The notes under the pieces were generated by a model, which was not told where the DNA came from, made no database searches, and worked only from the letters and a program-made list of their open reading frames with translations. From Blastocystis hominis (lineage: Eukaryota; Sar; Bigyra; Opalinata; Blastocystidae), in the NCBI RefSeq assembly GCF_000151665.1, contig NW_013171838.1, positions 509,001 to 573,000 on the forward strand: a stretch of DNA of 64,000 nucleotides, written 5' to 3'. Numbering within the stretch: position 1 is the stretch's first letter; each line of letters opens with the position of its first letter. This document shows positions 19,501 through 39,554 of the stretch, one piece after another. The translations under genes were made by a program, and so were the position numbers.

Positions 19501-22500
19501 GAAATGACTGAACTATCTGCCGAATAGTAGATGGTGTGGTTTTCTGGATCCGAGGCAGTGACATTGAGCATGAAAGTTCCTACAGGAGTGTTTTCCGGAA
19601 GCGAGAGTGAATAAGAGTCATTTTCAAACATCGGAGGTTCATTGACATCAATGACATGGATTGTAACATTGTCACAACTACTCTGAGCAACAGAATCAAA
19701 GACACAAAGCATCAAACGATACTCAGAGATAGACTCATAGTCAAGCATTTCTTCAACCGATAGTACAATATCGTCTGCCACAAAAGAGAAGGGGAAGGAA
19801 TAGTTTTCCACTGTAGTATTTGTAATGTCTGTGACTGAGTATGATAGCTGATCATCATCCGTGGCGAAAATAGGAATTGAAATAAGTGAACCTTGAGGAA
19901 TATCTTCTCTGACAAAGATGTCATTCTGAATCCAATGCAGTACTGGAGGATGATTCCTCTTCGTTACATCAATATGAATTAAGCAAGAATCATTCAAGCC
20001 TCCAGAATCCGTTACAGTGACAAAGAAATCATAATACGAATGATATTGATACTTCAGAGAACTCGAATTGGTCACATACATCAATCCCAGTGTGGGATGA
20101 ATTCGGAATGGAAGATCATCAGAACTGTGAATTGGTCTTGCTGAGAACGTCAGAGTATCATTGAAATCAGGATCCGTAGCAATAAATTCTGGATAGAGGA
20201 AAGTATTATCTTCGCTCTCTTCCATAATACTACGATAAGACAAGCATGAATCCTGTGAGAGTGCTGGAGGTTCGTTAACATTCGTAACAGAAATAGTGAT
20301 ATTTCCGATAGCTTGATTACCGTAATAATCAGTAACAACGACTTGGAAGGCGTAGAAACTAGTAGATTCATAATCAAGTGGGAGAGAATGATAAAGCAAT
20401 CCAGACTCTGTATCAATCATGAATGGAGAAGCAGAGGATGACAGTTCATAGCGAAGAGGTGAAGCAAACGTCCCGATAACAGTGAGAGCAGGTGATAGTG
20501 AGATATTAATAGGATGGTCCTCAGCAACAATATAAGATTGGTTCTTCACTTCAAACGAGTTAGAATCATCTGTGTTGAACGAGATAATGACAAGAGTAGA
20601 ATCAATCAGTCCTTCTGAATCTGTTGCAGTCACGGTGACATTATATGACATCCATGGATTTACCGCAAAAGAAATCAGTCGAATCTGTCCAATATTGTCA
20701 ATGGAAAAGAGAGTGGAATTTGACAACGAATAACTCACAATGTTATTTTCAGGATCAACAGCAGTGACAGGAATGCCAATCGAATCGTACAGTTGAGGAG
20801 GATAGCTTCCAATGCGATACAGAGTATTTTGTGGGAAATGTGGAGGTTCATTCACATCAAGCAAATGGATTGAAAGCATTATCTCATCAAATAACATGGA
20901 AGAATCGGTAACTCTGACACGAATTGGCCACTGCTCTTTGACTTCATAATCGAAATACTGTAAATCCTTGAGATACACAGTTCCTTGATCATTGATATCA
21001 AAAGGACAAGAAATGGTAGAATCAATACAGGACAAGGTAAATGCATGCGAATCATGAATATCAGGATCGGTGAAAAGAAGCTGATTACCGATTACAGTGT
21101 GAACACTGGCGGATTCATTGATGTAAGCAACTGTGGGAATAATGCCACCGCTCCAGTTCTGATTCTTGATAAACAAAGGTCTTTCAGGAACATCATGAAT
21201 AACGAAAATGAGGTATGTTTCACAGTAAAGAGACATATTTGTAGCTAGAGATGCACGGATAGTGAAATTAAACCTATATTAAAAGGAAGAAAAAGTAGTC
21301 TACTGTTGATTCAATGTGGTTTCATAATCGATATCTTGGACAGTCTGAAGCACTCCAGACAATGGATGAATGGTGATGAAGGAAGTATTGAGCATCGTGT
21401 AAACGACTTGCTCGTGTGGTCTGCTTTGTGCCTGGTATGTGGAAATGACTGATCCTATTGGTATGTGTTCTTGAAGATGGAAGAGATCTGGGTAACAAAT
21501 GGGTGCCTTGTCCACAGCCGACACAACAACCGTGACATTCTCTTCAGAACAAAGCCTTGGAATTCCAGAGTGAAGTGAAGGAAAACAGCCTTGATAATAG
21601 AATAAGGATATGTCACACAACTGAACCAATAGTTGATATCGATTATACTGATATGCGTCCAACGATGATGTTAGCATCAATTTTCCAGATTCAGATAGAT
21701 TGAATGGCTGAATGATCGAGTGTGAGCAGGGTGTGAGTAACGTGAAGGTATGCTCTTGGAAGATATCCTAGAAATGAGAACTCAAGAAGATTGGAACTTC
21801 ATCCGTGAAGCTGAGTTGTTCAGACCAAGTCTCAGGACTTGCATTCTCATCAATACGTACGGTGAGCGTAACTATAGTGGGAGGTTCATTAACGTGAAGT
21901 TAAGAAACAAAATGGCATTATTGATAATAAAGGATATATCCACCACAAACACAAATAACGGGACCATCGCCACAGGGACATGAGAATTGGCAAGATAAAC
22001 AAGAACCAGACATTCATAGAGCGATTGATGCTCGTAATTAAGTGATTCATGAATACAGAGAGAGCCATTCGCTCTAATAGACATAACGGAAGATTCTAGG
22101 AGTAGATCATTGATTATGACTATACCGTAATGGAAACTAACTGAGGTTAATCTAGAATCATTAACAACAAGGACATTATCGATGATAGTGTTCGGATCAT
22201 TGTTTTCTTCAATTGTAATATTGGTATAATGAATAATCTCAATTGGAATACTGACAGGATCAACGATGTGAATGTAAATAGAACATCTACGATTGAAGAA
22301 TATGAATGATTCTACGTATCATTCAATGCTGGTATGCCATCATCCTCCACCAACACCGTTAAAGTACAATCCGTAAACGACTTGGCAAATATATTATTAT
22401 CTAGTAAAACAATCTCTCCGGTAGTATCATTCACAGCAAAGAAAGCAGAATAAACGGAATCATCTAAGTAATATCAATGGAGAAAGAATACTGAGAATGG

Positions 22501-25500
22501 AATAATGCAGAGATTGGTTATAATCAACATCATATGCAACAACATAGCCCAATGATGAGTACTTGGGTGAGTATAAAGGTAACTCAAAAGCAGAATCCAG
22601 GGCAACGGGAGGATTATTATAATCATTGAAATAGACAGAAACCGAGCAGGTGAATGATGATACTTGATCCACAGCAGTGATGTTGAATTTGAATGGAGAG
22701 AACTGATTCAACAACTATAGAATAGGGAAATACTTACATTACATACCTGGCGAATAGCATTATCTTGTAAAGTGAACGAAACCTGATGAGTAATGTTCGA
22801 ATACTGTACTAAGCTAGAAGATACAAAGGTTTCGTATGGTAGATTGACAGATCTAATAAACAAATTCGAAATAACAGATTGATAGTCGACGATATCATTC
22901 ACAATAAACACATCCATAGTATGACTAGCACAGAGAATATCACCTAACTCATTCTCAAATAGAACACCGTTGTACAATCTACAATCACAATGACACTCAT
23001 TACAAATTACATTCCATCAATACAAATCTCCCAGGCAGTCGGAGTGTACAAATCAAATCTATTAGATGCTGGTACGTCAAACGGATAACTGCACAAACCA
23101 TCAGGCACATCGATTGGTGATCCACTTCCTTCAGGACAATACTTATCTACACTTCCACAATCATTTGAAGTCGAATTTGTAGATCCAGCTAAACAATAAT
23201 ATCCAGCTTCACATAATCCTGAACATTGTTCATTGCTCAATCCTTCAGTTGATCCATAAGTACCAGCAGGACATTCATTCTTCACTCCATTCACACAATA
23301 ACTGCCAATTGGACAAATCGTTTGTTCAGATCGATTTGATTCATTGGATGATTCAGGTCCAGAATAATATCCTTCACTCACATCAATCGGTGATCCACTT
23401 CCTTCAGGACAATATTTATCTACACTTCCACAATCATTTGCAGTTGCATTTGTAGATCCAGCTAAACAATAGTATCCAGCTTCACATAATCCTGAACATT
23501 GTTCATTGCTCAATCCTTCAATCGATCCATAAGTACCAGCAGGACATTCATTCTTCACTCCGTTCACACAATAACTGCCAATTGGACAAATCGTTTGTTC
23601 AGATCGATTTGATTCATTGGATGATTCAGGTCCAGAATAGTATCCTTCACTCACATCAATTGGTGATCCACTTCCTTCAGGACAATATTTATCTACACTT
23701 CCACAATCATTTGCAGTTGCATTTGTAGATCCAGCTAAACAATAATATCCAGCTTCACATAATCCTGAACATTGCTCATTGCTCAATCCTTCAATTGATC
23801 CATAAGTACCAGCAGGACATTCATTCTTCACTCCGTTCGAGCAATAACTGCCAATTGGACAAATCGTTTGTTCAGATCGATTTGATTCATTCTCAGTTTC
23901 AGGTCCAGAATAGTATCCTTCACTCACATCAATTGGTGATCCACTTCCTTCAGGACAATATTTATCTACACTTCCACAATCATTTGCAGTTGCATTTGTA
24001 GATCCAGCTAAACAATAATATCCAGCTTCACATAATCCTGAACATTCACTTGTAGTCAATCCTTCAATTGATCCATAAGTACCAGCAGGACATTCATTCT
24101 TCACTCCATTCACACAATAACTGCCAATTGGACAAATCGTTTGTTCAGATCGATTTGATTCATTGGATGATTCAGGTCCAGAATAATATCCTTCACTCAC
24201 ATCAATTGGTGATCCACTTCCTTCAGGACAATATTTATCTACACTTCCACAATCATTTGCAGTTGCATTTGTAGATCCAGCTAAACAATAGTATCCAGCT
24301 TCACATAATCCTGAACATTGTTCATTGCTCAATCCTTCAATCGATCCATAAGTACCAGCAGGACATTCATTCTTCACTCCGTTCACACAATAACTGCCAA
24401 TTGGACAAATCGTTTGTTCAGATCGATTTGCTTCATTCTCAGATTCAGGTCCAGAATAATATCCTTCACTCACATCAATCGGTGATCCACTTCCTTCAGG
24501 ACAGTATTTATCTACACTTCCACAATCATTTGCAGTTGCATTTGTAGATCCAGGTGGACAATAGTATCCAGCTTCACATAATCCTGAACATTGTTCATTG
24601 CTCAATCCTTCAATTGATCCATAAGTACCAGCAGGACATTCATTCTTCACTCCATTCACACAATAACTGCCAATTGGACAAATCGTTTGTTCAGATCGAT
24701 TTGATTCATTCTCAGATTCAGGTCCAGAATAATATCCTTCACTCACATCAATTGGTGATCCACTTCCTTCAGGACAATATTTATCTACACTTCCACAATC
24801 ATTTGCAGTTGCATTTGTAGATCCAGCTAAACAATAGTATCCAGCTTCACATAATCCTGAACATTCACTTGTAGTCAATCCTTCAGTTGATCCATAAGTA
24901 CCAGCAGGACATTCATTCTTCACTCCATTCACACAATAACTGCCAATTGGACAAATCGTTTGTTCAGATCGATTTGATTCATTGGATGATTCAGGTCCAG
25001 AATAATATCCTTCACTCACATCAATCGGTGATCCACTTCCTTCAGGACAATATTTATCTACACTTCCACAATCATTTGCAGTTGCATTTGTAGATCCAGG
25101 TGGACAATAGTATCCAGCTTCACATAATCCTGAACATTGTTCATTGCTCAATCCTTCAGTTGATCCATAAGTACCAGCAGGACATTCATTCTTCACTCCA
25201 TTCACACAATAACTGCCAATTGGACAAATCGTTTGTTCAGATCGATTTGATTCATTGGATGATTCAGGTCCAGAATAATATCCTTCACTCACATCAATCG
25301 GTGATCCACTTCCTTCAGGACAATATTTATCTACACTTCCACAATCATTTGCAGTTGCATTTGTAGATCCAGGTGGACAATAGTATCCAGCTTCACATAA
25401 TCCTGAACATTGTTCATTGCTCAATCCTTCAATCGATCCATAAGTACCAGCAGGACATTCATTCTTCACTCCATTCACACAATAACTGCCAATTGGACAA

Positions 25501-28500
25501 ATCGTTTGTTCAGATCGATTTGCTTCATTCCGAGATTCAGGTCCAGAATAATATCCTTCACTCACATCAATCGGTGATCCACTTCCTTCAGGACAATATT
25601 TATCTACACTTCCACAATCATTTGCAGTTGCATTTGTAGATCCAGCTAAACAATAGTATCCAGCTTCACATAATCCTGAACATTCACTTGTAGTCAATCC
25701 TTCAGTTGATCCATAAGTACCAGCAGGACATTCATTCTTCACTCCATTCACACAATAACTGCCAATTGGACAAATCGTTTGTTCAGATCGATTTGATTCA
25801 TTGGATGATTCAGGTCCAGAATAATATCCTTCACTCACATCAATCGGTGATCCACTTCCTTCAGGACAATATTTATCTACACTTCCACAATCATTTGCAG
25901 TTGCATTTGTAGATCCAGGTGGACAATAGTATCCAGCTTCACATAATCCTGAACATTGTTCATTGCTCAATCCTTCAATCGATCCATAAGTACCAGCAGG
26001 ACATTCATTCTTCACTCCATTCACACAATAACTGCCAATTGGACAAATCGTTTGTTCAGATCGATTTGATTCATTGGATGATTCAGGTCCAGAATAATAT
26101 CCTTCACTCACATCAATCGGTGATCCACTTCCTTCAGGACAGTATTTATCTACACTTCCACAATCATTTGCAGTTGCATTTGTAGATCCAGCTAAACAAT
26201 AGTATCCAGCTTCACATAATCCTGAACATTCACTTGTAGTCAATCCTTCAGTTGATCCATAAGTACCAGCGGGACATTCATTCTTCACTCCGTTCGAGCA
26301 ATAACTGCCAATTGGACAAATCGTTTGTTCAGATCGATTTGATTCATTCTCAGTTTCAGGTCCAGAATAGTATCCTTCACTCACATCAATTGGTGATCCA
26401 CTTCCTTCAGGACAATATTTATCTACACTTCCACAATCATTTGCAGTTGCATTTGTAGATCCAGCTAAACAATAATATCCAGCTTCACATAATCCTGAAC
26501 ATTGCTCATTGCTCAATCCTTCACTTGATCCATAAGTACCAGCGGGACATTCATTCTTCACTCCGTTCGAGCAATAACTGCCAATTGGACAAATCGTTTG
26601 TTCAGATCGATTTGATTCATTGGATGATTCAGGTCCAGAATAATATCCTTCACTCACATCAATTGGTGATCCACTTCCTTCAGGACAATATTTATCTACA
26701 CTTCCACAATCATTTGCAGTTGAATTTGTAGATCCAGCTAAACAATAATATCCAGCTTCACATAATCCTGAACATTGCTCATTGCTCAATCCTTCAATTG
26801 ATCCATAAGTACCAGCGGGACATTCATTCTTCACTCCATTCACACAATAACTGCCAATTGGACAAATCGTTTGTTCAGATCGATTTGCTTCATTGGATGA
26901 TTCAGGTCCAGAATAATATCCTTCACTCACATCAATTGGTGATCCACTTCCTTCAGGACAATATTTATCTACACTTCCACAATCATTTGCAGTTGCATTT
27001 GTAGATCCAGCTAAACAATAATATCCAGCTTCACATAATCCTGAACATTGCTCATTGCTCAATCCTTCACTTGATCCATAAGTACCAGCGGGACATTCAT
27101 TCTTCACTCCGTTCGAGCAATAACTGCCAATTGGACAAATCGTTTGTTCAGATCGATTTGATTCATTGGATGATTCAGGTCCAGAATAATATCCTTCACT
27201 CACATCGATTGGTGATCCACTTCCTTCAGGACAGTATTTATCTACACTTCCACAATCATTTGCAGTTGCATTTGTAGATCCAGGTGGACAATAATATCCA
27301 GCTTCACATAATCCTGAACATTCACTTGTAGTCAATCCTTCAATCGATCCATAAGTACCAGCAGGACATTCATTCTTCACTCCATTCACACAATAACTGC
27401 CAATTGGACAAATCGTTTGTTCAGATCGATTTGATTCATTCTCAGATTCAGGTCCAGAATAATATCCTTCACTCACATCAATTGGTGATCCACTTCCTTC
27501 AGGACAATATTTATCTACACTTCCACAATCATTTGCAGTTGCATTTGTAGATCCAGGTGGACAATAGTATCCAGCTTCACATAATCCTGAACATTGTTCA
27601 TTGCTCAATCCTTCAATCGATCCATAAGTACCAGCAGGACATTCATTCTTCACTCCATTCACACAATAACTGCCAATTGGACAAATCGTTTGTTCAGATC
27701 GATTTGATTCATTCTCAGATTCAGGTCCAGAATAATATCCTTCACTCACATCAATCGGTGATCCACTTCCTTCAGGACAATATTTATCTACACTTCCACA
27801 ATCATTTGCAGTTGCATTTGTAGATCCAGCTAAACAATAGTATCCAGCTTCACATAATCCTGAACATTGTTCATTGCTCAATCCTTCAATCGATCCATAA
27901 GTACCAGCAGGACATTCATTCTTCACTCCGTTCACACAATAACTGCCAATTGGACAAATCGTTTGTTCAGATCGATTTGCTTCATTCTCAGATTCAGGTC
28001 CAGAATAATATCCTTCACTCACATCAATCGGTGATCCACTTCCTTCAGGACAGTATTTATCTACACTTCCACAATCATTTGCAGTTGCATTTGTAGATCC
28101 AGCTAAACAATAGTATCCAGCTTCACATAATCCTGAACATTGTTCATTGCTCAATCCTTCAATCGATCCATAAGTACCAGCAGGACATTCATTCTTCACT
28201 CCATTCACACAATAACTGCCAATTGGACAAATCGTTTGTTCAGATCGATTTGATTCATTGGATGATTCAGGTCCAGAATAATATCCTTCACTCCCATCAA
28301 TCGGTGATCCACTTCCTCGAGGACAATATTTATCAACACTTCCACATTCATTTGCAGTTCCATTTGTAGATCCAGCTAAACAATAGTATCCAGCTTCACA
28401 TAATCCTGAACATTGTTCATTGCTCAATCCTTCAATCGATCCATAAGTACCAGCAGGACATTCATTCTTCACTCCATTCACACAATAACTGCCAATTGGA

Positions 28501-31500
28501 CAAATCGTTTGTTCAGATCGATTTGCTTCATTCTCAGATTCAGGTCCAGAATAATATCCTTCACTCACATCAATCGGTGATCCACTTCCTTCAGGACAAT
28601 ATTTATCTACACTTCCACAATCATTTGCAGTTGCATTTGTAGATCCAGCTAAACAATAGTATCCAGCTTCACATAATCCTGAACATTGTTCATTGCTCAA
28701 TCCTTCAATCGATCCATAAGTACCAGCAGGACATTCATTCTTCACTCCGTTCACACAATAACTGCCAATTGGACAAATCGTTTGTTCAGATCGATTTGCT
28801 TCATTCTCAGATTCAGGTCCAGAATAATATCCTTCACTCACATCAATCGGTGATCCACTTCCTTCAGGACAATATTTATCTACACTTCCACAATCATTTG
28901 CAGTTGCATTTGTAGATCCAGCTAAACAATAGTATCCAGCTTCACATAATCCTGAACATTCACTTGTAGTCAATCCTTCAATCGATCCATAAGTACCAGC
29001 AGGACATTCATTCTTCACTCCATTCACACAATAACTGCCAATTGGACAAATCGTTTGTTCAGATCGATTTGATTCATTCCGAGATTCAGGTCCAGAATAA
29101 TATCCTTCACTCACATCAATTGGTGATCCACTTCCTTCAGGACAATATTTATCTACACTTCCACAATCATTTGCAGTTGCATTTGTAGATCCAGGTGGAC
29201 AATAGTATCCAGCTTCACATAATCCTGAACATTGTTCATTGCTCAATCCTTCAATCGATCCATAAGTACCAGCAGGACATTCATTCTTCACTCCATTCAC
29301 ACAATAACTGCCAATTGGACAAATCGTTTGTTCAGATCGATTTGATTCATTGGATGATTCAGGTCCAGAATAATATCCTTCACTCACATCAATCGGTGAT
29401 CCACTTCCTTCAGGACAATATTTATCTACACTTCCACAATCATTTGCAGTTGCATTTGTAGATCCAGGTGGACAATAGTATCCAGCTTCACATAATCCTG
29501 AACATTGTTCATTGCTCAATCCTTCAATCGATCCATAAGTACCAGCAGGACATTCATTCTTCACTCCATTCACACAATAACTGCCAATTGGACAAATCGT
29601 TTGTTCAGATCGATTTGATTCATTGGATGATTCAGGTCCAGAATAATATCCTTCACTCACATCAATCGGTGATCCACTTCCTTCAGGACAATATTTATCT
29701 ACACTTCCACAATCATTTGCAGTTGCATTTGTAGATCCAGGTGGACAATAGTATCCAGCTTCACATAATCCTGAACATTGTTCATTGCTCAATCCTTCAA
29801 TTCGATCCATAAGTACCAGCAGGACATTCATTCTTCAACTCCATTCACACCAATAACTGCCAATTGGACAAATCGTTTGTTCAGATCGATTTGCTTCATT
29901 CTCAGATTCAGGTCCAGAATAATATCCTTCACTCACATCGATTGGTGATCCACTTCCTTCAGGACAGTATTTATCTACACTTCCACAATCATTTGCAGTT
30001 GCATTTGTAGATCCAGCTAAACAATAGTATCCAGCTTCACATAATCCTGAACATTGTTCATTGCTCAATCCTTCAATCGATCCATAAGTACCAGCAGGAC
30101 ATTCATTCTTCACTCCATTCACACAATAACTGCCAATTGGACAAATCGTTTGTTCAGATCGATTTGATTCATTGGATGATTCAGGTCCAGAATAATATCC
30201 TTCACTCACATCAATCGGTGATCCACTTCCTTCAGGACAATATTTATCTACACTTCCACAATCATTTGCAGTTGCATTTGTAGATCCAGCTAAACAATAG
30301 TATCCAGCTTCACATAATCCTGAACATTGTTCATTGCTCAATCCTTCAATCGATCCATAAGTACCAGCAGGACATTCATTCTTCACTCCGTTCACACAAT
30401 AACTGCCAATTGGACAAATCGTTTGTTCAGATCGATTTGCTTCATTCTCAGATTCAGGTCCAGAATAATATCCTTCACTCACATCAATCGGTGATCCACT
30501 TCCTTCAGGACAGTATTTATCTACACTTCCACAATCATTTGCAGTTGCATTTGTAGATCCAGCTAAACAATAGTATCCAGCTTCACATAATCCTGAACAT
30601 TCACTTGTAGTCAATCCTTCAATCGATCCATAAGTACCAGCAGGACATTCATTCTTCACTCCATTCACACAATAACTGCCAATTGGACAAATCGTTTGTT
30701 CAGATCGATTTGATTCATTGGATGATTCAGGTCCAGAATAATATCCTTCACTCACATCAATCGGTGATCCACTTCCTTCAGGACAGTATTTATCTACACT
30801 TCCACAATCATTTGCAGTTGCATTTGTAGATCCAGGTGGACAATAGTATCCAGCTTCACATAATCCTGAACATTCACTTGTAGTCAATCCTTCAGTTGAT
30901 CCATAAGTACCAGCAGGACATTCATTCTTTACTCCGTTCACACAATAACTGCCAATTGGACAAATCGTTTGTTCAGATCGATTTGATTCATTGGATGATT
31001 CAGGTCCAGAATAATATCCTTCACTCACATCAATCGGTGATCCACTTCCTTCAGGACAATATTTATCTACACTTCCACAATCATTTGCAGTTGCATTTGT
31101 AGATCCAGCTAAACAATAGTATCCAGCTTCACATAATCCTGAACATTCACTTGTAGTCAATCCTTCAATCGATCCATAAGTACCAGCAGGACATTCATTC
31201 TTTACTCCATTCACACAATAACTGCCAATTGGACAAATCGTTTGTTCAGATCGATTTGATTCATTGGATGATTCAGGTCCAGAATAATATCCTTCACTCA
31301 CATCGATTGGTGATCCACTTCCTTCAGGACAGTATTTATCTACACTTCCACAATCATTTGCAGTTGCATTTGTAGATCCAGCTAAACAATAGTATCCAGC
31401 TTCACATAATCCTGAACATTCACTTGTAGTCAATCCTTCAATTGATCCATAAGTACCAGCAGGACATTCATTCTTTACTCCGTTCACACAATAACTGCCA

Positions 31501-32916
31501 ATTGGACAAATCGTTTGTTCAGATCGATTTGATTCATTCTCAGATTCAGGTCCAGAATAATATCCTTCACTCACATCGATTGGTGATCCACTTCCTTCAG
31601 GACAATACTTATTTACACTTCCACAATCATTTGCAGTTGCATTTGTAGATCCAGGTGGACAATAGTATCCAGCTTCACATAATCCTGAACATTGTTCATT
31701 GCTCAATCCTTCAGTTGATCCATAAGTACCAGCAGGACATTCATTCTTCACTCCATTCACACAATAACTGCCAATTGGACAAATCGTTTGTTCAGATCGA
31801 TTTGATTCATTCGATGATTCAGGTCCAGAATAATATCCTTCACTCACATCAATCGGTGATCCACTTCCTTCAGGACAGTATTTATCTACACTTCCACAAT
31901 CATTTGCAGTCGAATTTGTAGATCCAGGTGGACAATAATATCCAGCTTCACATAATCCTGAACATTCACTTGTAGTCAATCCTTCAATTGATCCATAAGT
32001 ACCCGCGGGACAAACATATTTGACACCTCCAGTGCAGTGGTGACCTGGCGGACATATTTCTATGCCTGTTCTTGTCATGACGTTACCGTTTTCGGGTGTG
32101 GTATAGTATCCTTCTGGTGCTAGCAGTGGAGTTGAAGATCCTTGAGGACAGTATTTATCGACAGCTCCACATCTATTCAGCACATAATTGATTGTTCCTT
32201 CAGGGCAATAAAATCCTGCCACACACAATCCAGAACACAGAGGCGTGCTTAGTCCCAAGGTGTTTCCATAGGTTCCGGCAGGACATATGTATTGTACATT
32301 GTTTTTACAGTAATTACCTCTTGGACAGCTAGTAACATCAACATGTATATTTTGACCAAATTGGTCAGTCTCTTCTACGAGCAGCTGCCCATCATTCATC
32401 TATATAACACATTTGTTTTTATTGATACTTGGTATTTTTGGCCACTTTTACAGAATTCATTTGTCGCATTACAAGGGTGGTCGTACATAGCATAGTCATC
32501 CATTCCTTCTTCTATATGTTATTCTATTCCATCAAATTTACTTTCACATAAGTAGCCATTCAAACATAGTGAGCATCTCATTGTGATACTGTCAATAACA
32601 TAGAAGTAGTAGTTAACAGGACATGGCTGACAAATATCATCAATACAGCTGCTTCCTATATTTCACTCATATTCTTCACAAATACCTGGTGGGCATAATA
32701 TCAATGTAGTTACACCCAGCTTCGTAGTATATTCGATAGGCTCGCCTATTTATCATTTGTGTTTTCATTCCTACTAAAACACTGCTCAGCAAGTCTACGA
32801 TTTTGAACGGTAGTCGTCGTGATTATTGATTGAGTAATATTCTCTTTCTCCACTATACTACCCTGTACATATGATAATTTCACTATTATTATTAAGAGAG
32901 CAAGCACAGATAGCAT
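10524..32916 (-). CDS. Giant modular surface protein: ephrin-receptor-like repeats, cadherin repeats, IPT/TIG domains, multi-pass membrane C-terminus
   Basis: One gene of about 7,350 codons. ATG at 32916 opens a signal peptide (MLSVLALLIIIVKLSYV). Then: a Cys-rich head; 34 units of about 91 residues of GCC2/GCC3 ephrin-receptor type (CPAGTYG...CSGLCEAGYYC; roughly residues 150-3250); about 20 cadherin repeats, most ending in DVNEPP or a variant (3260-5460); about 12 IPT/TIG domains (ITIYGSNFG, VYVSGLNLG; 5460-6760); a Cys-rich knot; eight or nine hydrophobic segments (from about 6870); and a charged cytoplasmic tail. Introns join all parts: 32746-32774, 32656-32685, 32512-32541, 32400-32428, 22979-23010, 22715-22746, 22464-22491, 22287-22315, 21894-21937 (AT-AC type), 21768-21797 and 21274-21303. 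Removing them leaves an exact multiple of three. Inferred role: adhesion or surface sensing. Three one-base insertions near 29.8 kb break the frame locally. Membrane and Cys-rich architecture of this kind is known from large protist surface proteins; the ligand is unknown. Confidence 0.88.
21894..21937 (-). other. U12-like AT-AC intron (44 bp) in the giant gene
   Basis: On the - strand the intron starts ATATCCTTT and ends TTTCTTAACTTCAC. Removing exactly these 44 bp fuses ...FVFVVD to VNEPP..., the canonical end of a cadherin repeat; unspliced, the frame hits a stop. No GT...AG pair here gives an open frame. The first nine bases match the U12-type 5' consensus exactly and TTTCTTAAC differs from the branch consensus TTCCTTAAC at one base. 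Confidence 0.8.
23060..32010 (-). repeat. Tandem array of 273-bp units (33 near-identical plus one divergent) encoding Cys-rich ephrin-receptor-like repeats
   Basis: Each 273-bp unit encodes 91 residues with ten or more Cys. The units differ at a few positions only: SNEQ or TTSE after EGL, LAG or PPG after YYC, and SNES, ENES, ENEA, RNEA or RNES before NRSEQ. The 5'-most unit (about 32010-32290) is divergent, and one internal unit (about 28270-28380) carries several private changes (CPRGS, NGTANECG). The mosaic of shared variants indicates unequal exchange or gene conversion, so copy number in the assembly is uncertain. Confidence 0.95.
29801..29851 (-). other. Cluster of three single-base insertions in the repeat array (net +3)
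   Basis: Against all sibling units there is an extra T at 29801/29802, an extra A at 29837/29838 and an extra C at 29850/29851. Each duplicates its neighbour base. Together they restore the frame but put a TGA between them on the - strand. An assembly or consensus error is the simplest reading. Confidence 0.85.
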
Positions 32917-37938: not shown

Positions 37939-39554
37939 ATGATACGAAGGATGTTTTCCACACTAGCACCCGTGAAAGGCATGAAAGACCTTCTTGGGAA
38001 CGATGCCTGGCGTTTTGCTCGTGTTTTCCTTGTTCGTGGTTGATTTTATATGTAGGTCATCGATATTATGAAGGAACAATGTGAATTGTATGGTTTGCAG
38101 TACGTTCGAACATATCTTTCGATTCAGTTGGATCTTTTGTTTTTTTAACTGTGACGCCGATTGTAGAAAGAGAGGAATTATTTTCTCGCGGTGTTGGAGA
38201 AGATAGCGATATTGTGTCAAAGGTACATCCGTTATTCCGCTTTTATGTAGGAAATGTATACATTCTTGGACAAATCGGGACGAAAACTCTGTCTCCGCCC
38301 TGAGTTCACATCAAGCGTTGTGAGAGCCGTTCTGAATAATCGTGCTTTAGATTCTGCGAATAGAGTTTACTATGTATATTTCTTACTTTCTTTTTCACTA
38401 GTATGGAAGCGCCTATCGATATGAGAACCCTCAGCACGGAAGATATCGAGAATTCCATCAATTCGGAGGCGAGATTATTCGGTGCAATCCGGATAGCGAC
38501 GACACGGAGATCATCTCTCTCTGCCACTCCATTCTGCGCCATCTGGATCTCCTCCCTCAAAGCGAACTTTTACTCAATTCGTTAGGAAACGAAGCCGAAA
38601 TGAAAGACTACCGCAAAGCCTTGCTCGTACCCTTCCCTCTCCATCCTCACTCACAAACAGTCGTACTTCTCCAAATACTATGATTCGCTGTCGAACGAAA
38701 GCCAGGCTCGATTTGATCGCGGCAGTGTGCTTCGAATCTTAGATAGCAAACAACCAAACGACCAAACCATCATCGCAACCTCGCCTCCAATCACTTCGTT
38801 CTTATCCTCTACTTCCCTTCGCGTTCTTTTTCTTTTCTTTGTTTTTTAACCAATAGCGATTTGAGAGACTTCAGAGCGATCTTTCCGATCTTTCCATTCC
38901 TTTTCGAATCGATCCTCGGCTTGTTCGAGGCCTCGACTATTACGACCACACGGTTTTTGAGTTTGCCACCAAAGCAGGAGCTGTCATCGTACTTCGCTCT
39001 TTTGAGAAGAAGGTTATTGTTTTAGGGAGGAGGATGCTATGAATCGCTTTCTGAGAAAATTGGAGGGAAACAGCACGTTCCTTGTGTTGGCTTTTCTGCG
39101 GGCATTGAGCGCTGTTTGATGTTGTCTAGCATTGAAAAACCGAACGAAGCGTCGGGTGTTGGCGTTGGTTTTGGCTAGTTGGGTTGATTGCAGATTGTGC
39201 AAATTGGAGATGAGGAATGTCGCGAAACGCGTTCAGCTGCTTTGAAAATCGAGAATGTGGCGATTTTTGAAATTGTCTGAGGAATAGAAGCTGAGGCAAC
39301 ATCACATTGCCACCATGCTTTGTGGGGGAAATGGATCGCTGAAGAAGGGGATCAAGGAAGCGTCTGCGAGCAATTTGCGATTCGTTGTATTGCTTGGAGA
39401 GAGTGAGATGGAACTCTTCAAGCAGTCTAGAATCGTGGTGAAGGATCTAACGACTCGAGAACAGAAGGATTATAGTCTTGACGACTTTATTCATTTAGTT
39501 TCTTGGGATGTTTGTGAGAAACACGAATCTGAAGTAATTTTGGAAATCCAATAG
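37939..39554 (+). CDS. Histidyl-tRNA synthetase
   Basis: 438-residue class II synthetase. Visible landmarks: [26 protein letters not shown], motif 2 [18 protein letters not shown], the HisA motif [15 protein letters not shown], motif 3 VGFSAGIER, and a C-terminal anticodon-binding domain ending [18 protein letters not shown]. The N-terminus [14 protein letters not shown] looks like a short organellar presequence, so dual targeting is possible. Nine introns: 38023-38055, 38112-38155 (AT-AC type), 38223-38250, 38374-38401, 38627-38660, 38823-38856, 38990-39026, 39164-39193 and 39257-39287. The exon sum is exactly 439 codons with TAG. Enzyme call is firm; localisation is inference. No TGTTTGTT is seen after this gene, unlike its neighbours. 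Confidence 0.92.
38112..38155 (+). other. U12-like AT-AC intron (44 bp) in the HisRS gene
   Basis: Begins ATATCTTTC, ends TTTTTAACTGTGAC. Its removal joins YGLQYVRT to PIVEREELF, matching the conserved YGF-x-x-I-R-T-P-x-x-E region of HisRS. A GT-AG alternative (38093-38127, 35 bp) keeps the frame open but replaces the conserved residues with VGSFVFLTV. Confidence 0.72.

Follow-up and report, generated by a model that had tools for sequence, protein, structure and literature searches.

Minor (U12-type) introns have been described in Blastocystis since 2017, when Gentekaki et al. reported 346 of them, together with four snRNAs and seven specific proteins, in subtype 1 (ST1), with passages of the same paper indicating that minor introns and minor-spliceosome components are identifiable in subtype 7 (ST7) as well, and that the annotation of the genome dealt with here is inaccurate in many cases (PMC5608401). 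Later, Larue and Roy (2023) recorded 253 minor introns in ST1, 77% of them AT-AC and 49% in phase 0; in the sections of their article that bear on Blastocystis, ST1, with a median of 39 bp and a mean slightly below 42 bp, has the shortest mean minor-intron length of the survey, and of the 12 minor introns compared, 11 are given as lost in B. hominis (PMC10639083). In the pertinent part of their article, Turunen et al. place the optimum distance between the branch site and the 3' splice site at 11-13 nt, which is an optimum in the systems studied and no strict rule, and point out that AT-AC termini are not exclusive to U12-type introns (PMC3584512). An earlier note on the DNA analysed here, which knew of no minor spliceosome described in this lineage, has thus been overtaken by the 2017 work, in whose passages ST7 is included, and a length of 44 bp, which that note held to be unusual for a minor intron, is ordinary in a genus with the ST1 mean just cited.

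The window, that is, the whole 64-kb stretch of DNA that was analysed (contig C24, 509001-573000), belongs to a genome of 18.7 Mb in 40 contigs. The word TGTTTGTT, which according to passages of PMC4159000 marks Blastocystis polyadenylation sites, is found 17 times in the window, where 3.28 occurrences would be expected. The same passages place a RHO gene with the C-terminus CTVM at FN668683.1 539586-539266, and contig C36 of this genome encodes CTVM within 539586-539266, with TGTTTGTT just downstream and a Ras-family match adjoining. The finding of this gene at its published coordinates identifies the genome as that of Blastocystis sp. subtype 7.

Within the window, a 44-bp segment of a giant gene encoding cadherin-like repeats can be regarded with high confidence, judging from its sequence, as a U12-type (minor) AT-AC spliceosomal intron of Blastocystis sp. 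subtype 7. The find is very probably genuine and mostly expected, minor introns being already known in Blastocystis. With the U12-type introns described in passages on ST1 and ST7 it shares the genus and the AT-AC termini (PMC5608401), and, at 44 bp, AT-AC and phase 0, it is likewise very short when set beside the ST1 minor introns (PMC10639083).

The Predicted 44-bp Intron and Its Host Gene

In the order of transcription, the junction and its surroundings read:

22715..22746, minus strand: GT-AG intron of the giant gene, 32 bp
22464..22491, minus strand: GT-AG intron of the giant gene, 28 bp
22287..22315, minus strand: GT-AG intron of the giant gene, 29 bp
21938..22286, minus strand: upstream exon, ending ...VPLFVFVVD
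21894..21937, minus strand: predicted U12-type AT-AC intron, 44 bp, phase 0 (donor 21937, acceptor 21894), in a cadherin-like repeat
21929..21937, minus strand: 5' splice site ATATCCTTT, to which the 5' end of the detected U11 is complementary
21899..21907, minus strand: branch-site element TTTCTTAAC, separated from the exon by the last 5 nt of the intron, TTCAC; pairs with the branch-binding stretch of U12
21798..21893, minus strand: downstream exon, starting VNEPPTIVTL
21768..21797, minus strand: GT-AG intron of the giant gene, 30 bp
21274..21303, minus strand: GT-AG intron of the giant gene, 30 bp

The consensus of the U12-type 5' splice site is (A/G)TATCCTTT, and that of the branch site TTCCTTRAC. 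Read on the minus strand from 21937 to 21894, the segment starts with ATATCCTTT, an exact fit to the former, and ends with TTTCTTAACTTCAC; its branch element TTTCTTAAC shows one mismatch to TTCCTTAAC and lies close to the 3' end, as the U12 type requires, and its AT-AC termini represent one of the two U12-type classes (AT-AC or GT-AG). The exact donor, one-mismatch branch and AC end described in the earlier note were all confirmed, and the U12-type AT-AC character, the shortness and the proximity of the branch to the 3' end are features present in the DNA. In a duplex with U12, TTTCTTAAC gives -4.5 kcal/mol, compared with -4.2 for TTTCTTGAC, the form carried by the duplicate gene (see below), and -7.4 for the consensus branch form. 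The distance to the 3' end, 5 nt after TTRAC, is outside the optimum of 11-13 nt, amounting to roughly half of it.

When the 44 bp are retained, the frame ending in FVVD continues to ISFIINNAILFLNFTLMNLPL-stop, whereas their removal, together with that of the five GT-AG introns, leaves a single open frame across the cadherin-like region, in which FVVD is joined to VNEPP. The same DVNEPP linker recurs further on in the giant protein. Thus, both the statement that the frame is closed unless the segment is removed and the statement that splicing rebuilds FVVD-VNEPP stand, and the description of the other introns as GT-AG introns of 28-32 bp holds for the five checked, between 21274 and 22746. A by-eye reading of the sequence revealed no GT-AG alternatives at the site that rebuild the cadherin linker.

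Pfam detects cadherin and TIG domains on the long downstream ORF of the giant gene. The cadherin repeat at the junction itself is not clearly recognised: the spliced 126-aa piece matches Cadherin_4 (16.0 bits) and Cadherin (14.5 bits), both below cut-off and the latter over a stretch that stops before the junction, the intron-retained form of the repeat gives no Pfam match, and the strong Cadherin match of a 643-aa piece sits in a different repeat. Further upstream in the giant gene region (23007-32399, minus strand) there are tandem 273-bp Cys-rich coding repeats, where a stop near 29835 splits the ORFs.

Conservation in a Second Gene Copy and in Relatives

Most of the giant gene (window 10492-32012, 21.5 kb) is present as a 97% identical copy on contig C2 (~288160-309679), a duplication whose upper end lies ~390 bp away from the furthest upstream ORF start (32399), which it does not reach. 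The C2 copy keeps the 44-bp intron with the same donor and acceptor, and TTTCTTGAC, which replaces TTTCTTAAC as branch element, is still within the TTCCTTRAC consensus.

A protein search with the joined exons gave 19 candidates, four of them at E <= 0.001, with identities of 76-79% across 79% of the query. These four database proteins, presumably from other Blastocystis lineages, match through FVVD and then continue with ISFF and a variable middle, the intron-derived stretch closing with a FLTSRE-end in three and a FLNFT-end in one; the two endings are compatible with translation of TTTCTTAACTTCAC plus GTGA in different frames. The intron lengths that they imply, counted by hand from protein letters, are 46, 43, 43 and 47 bp. 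Since the ends are fixed and the length of the middle shifts out of step with codons, the segment behaves as an intron would.

Further Candidates in the Window and in the Genome

A gene for a conserved enzyme, elsewhere in the window, contains a second candidate:

38112..38155, plus strand: second predicted U12-type AT-AC intron, 44 bp, ATATCTTT ... TTTTTTAAC TGTGAC, in a histidyl-tRNA synthetase gene

Its removal joins YGLQYVRT to PIVEREELF. The joined exons matched 12 solved sequences, mostly histidyl-tRNA synthetases, with no gap at the junction in the two alignments inspected, and the spliced 90-aa piece scores 47.7 bits for Pfam tRNA-synt_His; the retained piece, of 49 aa only, has no Pfam match. 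GT-AG introns flank the candidate on both sides, one of 28 bp at 38223-38250 and one of ~33-35 bp ending at 38055. Because of its donor ATATCTTT and its branch TTTTTTAAC, it was missed by the strict pattern used for the genome-wide search.

This pattern, ATATCCTT-N12-42-CTTRAC-N1-14-AC, gave 59 rows in the 18.7-Mb genome, versus five when reversed. The 59 rows correspond to 52 places after merging of nested ends and to 49 distinct sequences when those with the same first 30 nt are counted once, the window intron and its C2 copy making a single count; loci repeating others (L002, L023, L029, L040, L044 and L076-L078) were left out of the frame tests, the counts of branch distance and the U6atac pairing, and the set of 49 also excludes L010, a further locus of this kind, and sites near a locus end. 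The control rate of the strict AT-AC pattern is ~0.02 per 64 kb, and the window has one such place. Set beside the 253 minor introns of the ST1 survey (PMC10639083), the 59 rows (control 5) are no measure of loss.

The median length of the 49 candidates is 43 bp. Their 3' end lies 5 nt after TTRAC in 25 and 6 nt in nine, that is, 5-6 nt in 34 of 49, a count in which the choice among several ACs went to the first one lying at least 5 nt away, somewhat favouring the value 5; when the nearest AC is taken instead, a hand count gives 5 nt in 22 and 6 nt in seven of 50 (29 together). The short branch distance, which the earlier note considered unusual, is indeed so against the published 11-13 nt but not within this genome. 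In its GT-AG form, the strict pattern does not exceed control (two rows versus 10). Donor and branch motifs and minor snRNAs are like those of animal and plant U12-type introns, but in animals and plants the optimum is 11-13 nt and GT-AG is the commoner class, as stated in the relevant part of PMC3584512, whereas here the mode is 5-6 nt and GT-AG does not exceed control.

A codon-frame test over the candidates, in which the chance level is about one third and the outcome depends on window length, was mixed and only weakly informative: with the preferred AC, windows of 30, 45, 60 and 90 nt gave 18, 32, 25 and 26 concordant candidates, respectively, out of 49, and with the nearest AC 23 of 50 were concordant.

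A looser donor pattern, ATATNNTT, yielded 81 rows versus 54 in control, among them five ATATCTTT rows; it is inflated by repeated elements and was not used for counts. Many copies of a repeat starting ATATCGTTAATGAAGATCGAG fit this loose pattern, often near contig ends (contigs C4, C7, C8, C10, C11, C15, C25, C28, C36, C37, C38 and C40), and this is perhaps a mobile or subtelomeric repeat. One GT-AG row (L046, contig C40:381786-381830, minus strand) can also be read as GT-AC, GTATCCTT ... CTTAACAGCAC, with its end 5 nt past TTAAC, a reading that may be due to chance.

Minor-Spliceosome Components

The search for minor snRNAs proposed in the earlier note placed three genes over their Rfam cut-offs, namely U12 (64.6 bits, cut-off 53), U6atac (61.6, cut-off 33) and U11 (49.5, cut-off 39), and one below, U4atac (42, cut-off 53). 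None of 14 control genomes has a match over cut-off for any of the four; at E <= 10, sub-cut-off matches appear in seven of the 14 for U12, 11 for U6atac, three for U11 and 11 for U4atac. The identity of U4atac is supported, despite its score, by the long duplex that it forms with U6atac (-26.7 kcal/mol).

The word ACCCATAA precedes the Rfam match of each of the four minor snRNA genes, beginning 57-64 nt before it, and lies 67 nt upstream in the case of a U6 gene with the usual ACAGAGA; the loci bearing it upstream of snRNA genes are L003, L005, L013, L014 and L084, and the 64-kb window has it on neither strand. It is likely to be an snRNA promoter element. Among the four minor snRNA genes, U6atac alone has a TATA-like word at -30, and it ends in a T run. 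As regards specific proteins, the zf-U11-48K domain was found with 42.1 bits, and at two weaker places over cut-off, the family being over cut-off in one of the 14 control genomes too.

An Unusual U6atac

A single U6atac copy was found:

contig C4:154865-154981 (L005 1617-1501), minus strand: U6atac gene

This RNA has UGAGCCGAGAGAAGG where the Rfam consensus has UGAAAGGAGAGAAGG, and AGCCGA takes the place of the AAAGGA through which U6atac usually pairs with the 5' splice site. The duplex between its first 19 nt and the first 16 nt of the 49 intron starts has a mean of -4.78 kcal/mol (range -10.0 to -0.9), versus -5.15 with shuffled starts, -7.03 for the consensus U6atac and -5.17 for U11, so that over these 49 starts there is, on average, no pairing beyond that of shuffled starts. 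The sole U6atac found has lost most of the usual complementarity to the 5' splice site. Pairing at +4 and +5, in the mammalian register, is retained. A possible pairing to the 5' splice site (-3.4 kcal/mol) involves the AAGG stretch at nt 20-23, but this stretch is needed for pairing with U12.

A consensus pattern allowing up to three mismatches, used to look for a second copy, found three places versus 17 in control; one is the known gene, and the other two have no U6atac match at E <= 1. No stretches related to U6atac were detected in genome_contigs or in viral_contigs (0 and 0). A further copy may be missing or unassembled. Pairing of U6atac to the 5' splice site is reportedly required in vivo in mammalian cells, according to work by Incorvaia and Padgett in 1998, and a natural U6atac lacking this pairing would make such a requirement testable. 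The passages on U6atac in PMC10639083 and PMC5608401 contain no mention of its pairing in Blastocystis.

Splicing Model and Alternative Explanations

By analogy with the general pathway, U11 would most likely pair with ATATCCTTT and U12 with TTTCTTAAC, as one di-snRNP spanning the 44-nt intron. The U4atac/U6atac.U5 tri-snRNP would join next, the branch adenosine would attack the 5' splice site, and the FVVD exon would be ligated to VNEPP, completing the cadherin-like repeat of the giant repeat protein. These steps follow from the general pathway, the observations at this point being the intron features, the gene copy, the protein letters of the relatives and the matches to four snRNA genes.

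The enrichment of the AT-AC pattern (59 versus 5) and the second window intron in a conserved enzyme gene support the minor-intron reading, against which the 5-nt branch distance, the loss of U6atac pairing, the sub-cut-off U4atac, the weak Pfam matches and the mixed frame test have to be counted. It could be argued that this AT-AC intron is a substrate of the major (U2) spliceosome and that its U12-like motifs are incidental, since the five nearby introns checked are all short GT-AG ones, the only U6atac detected is a poor pairing partner for the 5' splice site, and AT-AC termini also occur outside U12-type introns, as noted in part of PMC3584512. This is very unlikely, however, in view of the co-occurrence of U12 donor and branch motifs, their genome-wide enrichment over the reversed pattern and their fit to the relatives, and of the presence of minor snRNA genes.

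That there is no intron at all, the frame being broken by an assembly indel or in a pseudogene, would be in keeping with the proneness of giant repetitive genes to assembly faults and with an intron predicted from DNA and protein letters. An indel is strongly opposed by the occurrence of the segment in the C2 copy and by its differing lengths in the four relatives, as read from protein letters, and removal of the introns leaves an open frame across the cadherin-like region; this explanation is hardly credible. The minor intron might also end 10 nt downstream, at the following AC, which is nearer the usual branch distance. Removal of these 54 bp would give FVVDLPL-stop, three codons and then a stop, whereas that of 44 bp gives FVVDVNEPP, the linker form of other repeats, which makes the longer intron extremely improbable. 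The preferred reading is therefore that of a 44-bp minor intron.

Significance for Blastocystis

Taking into account that the annotation of this genome is described as inaccurate in passages of PMC5608401, introns of this kind may be absent from gene models, and the candidate list could help to recheck the minor-intron loss reported for B. hominis relative to ST1 in PMC10639083. The aspects that are possibly new are the loss of U6atac complementarity and the ending of introns 5-6 nt after TTRAC; it is these two that deserve the attention of specialists.

As a tentative and rather doubtful proposal, the minor spliceosome of ST7 might be a simplified one, which would process almost only AT-AC introns of ~40 nt that mostly end 5-6 nt past the branch element, using a U6atac devoid of base pairing to the 5' splice site at +6/+7, a register that comes from mammalian work. 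If this were true, the selection of 5' splice sites would depend on U11, and little base pairing would be called for when the site passes to U6atac.
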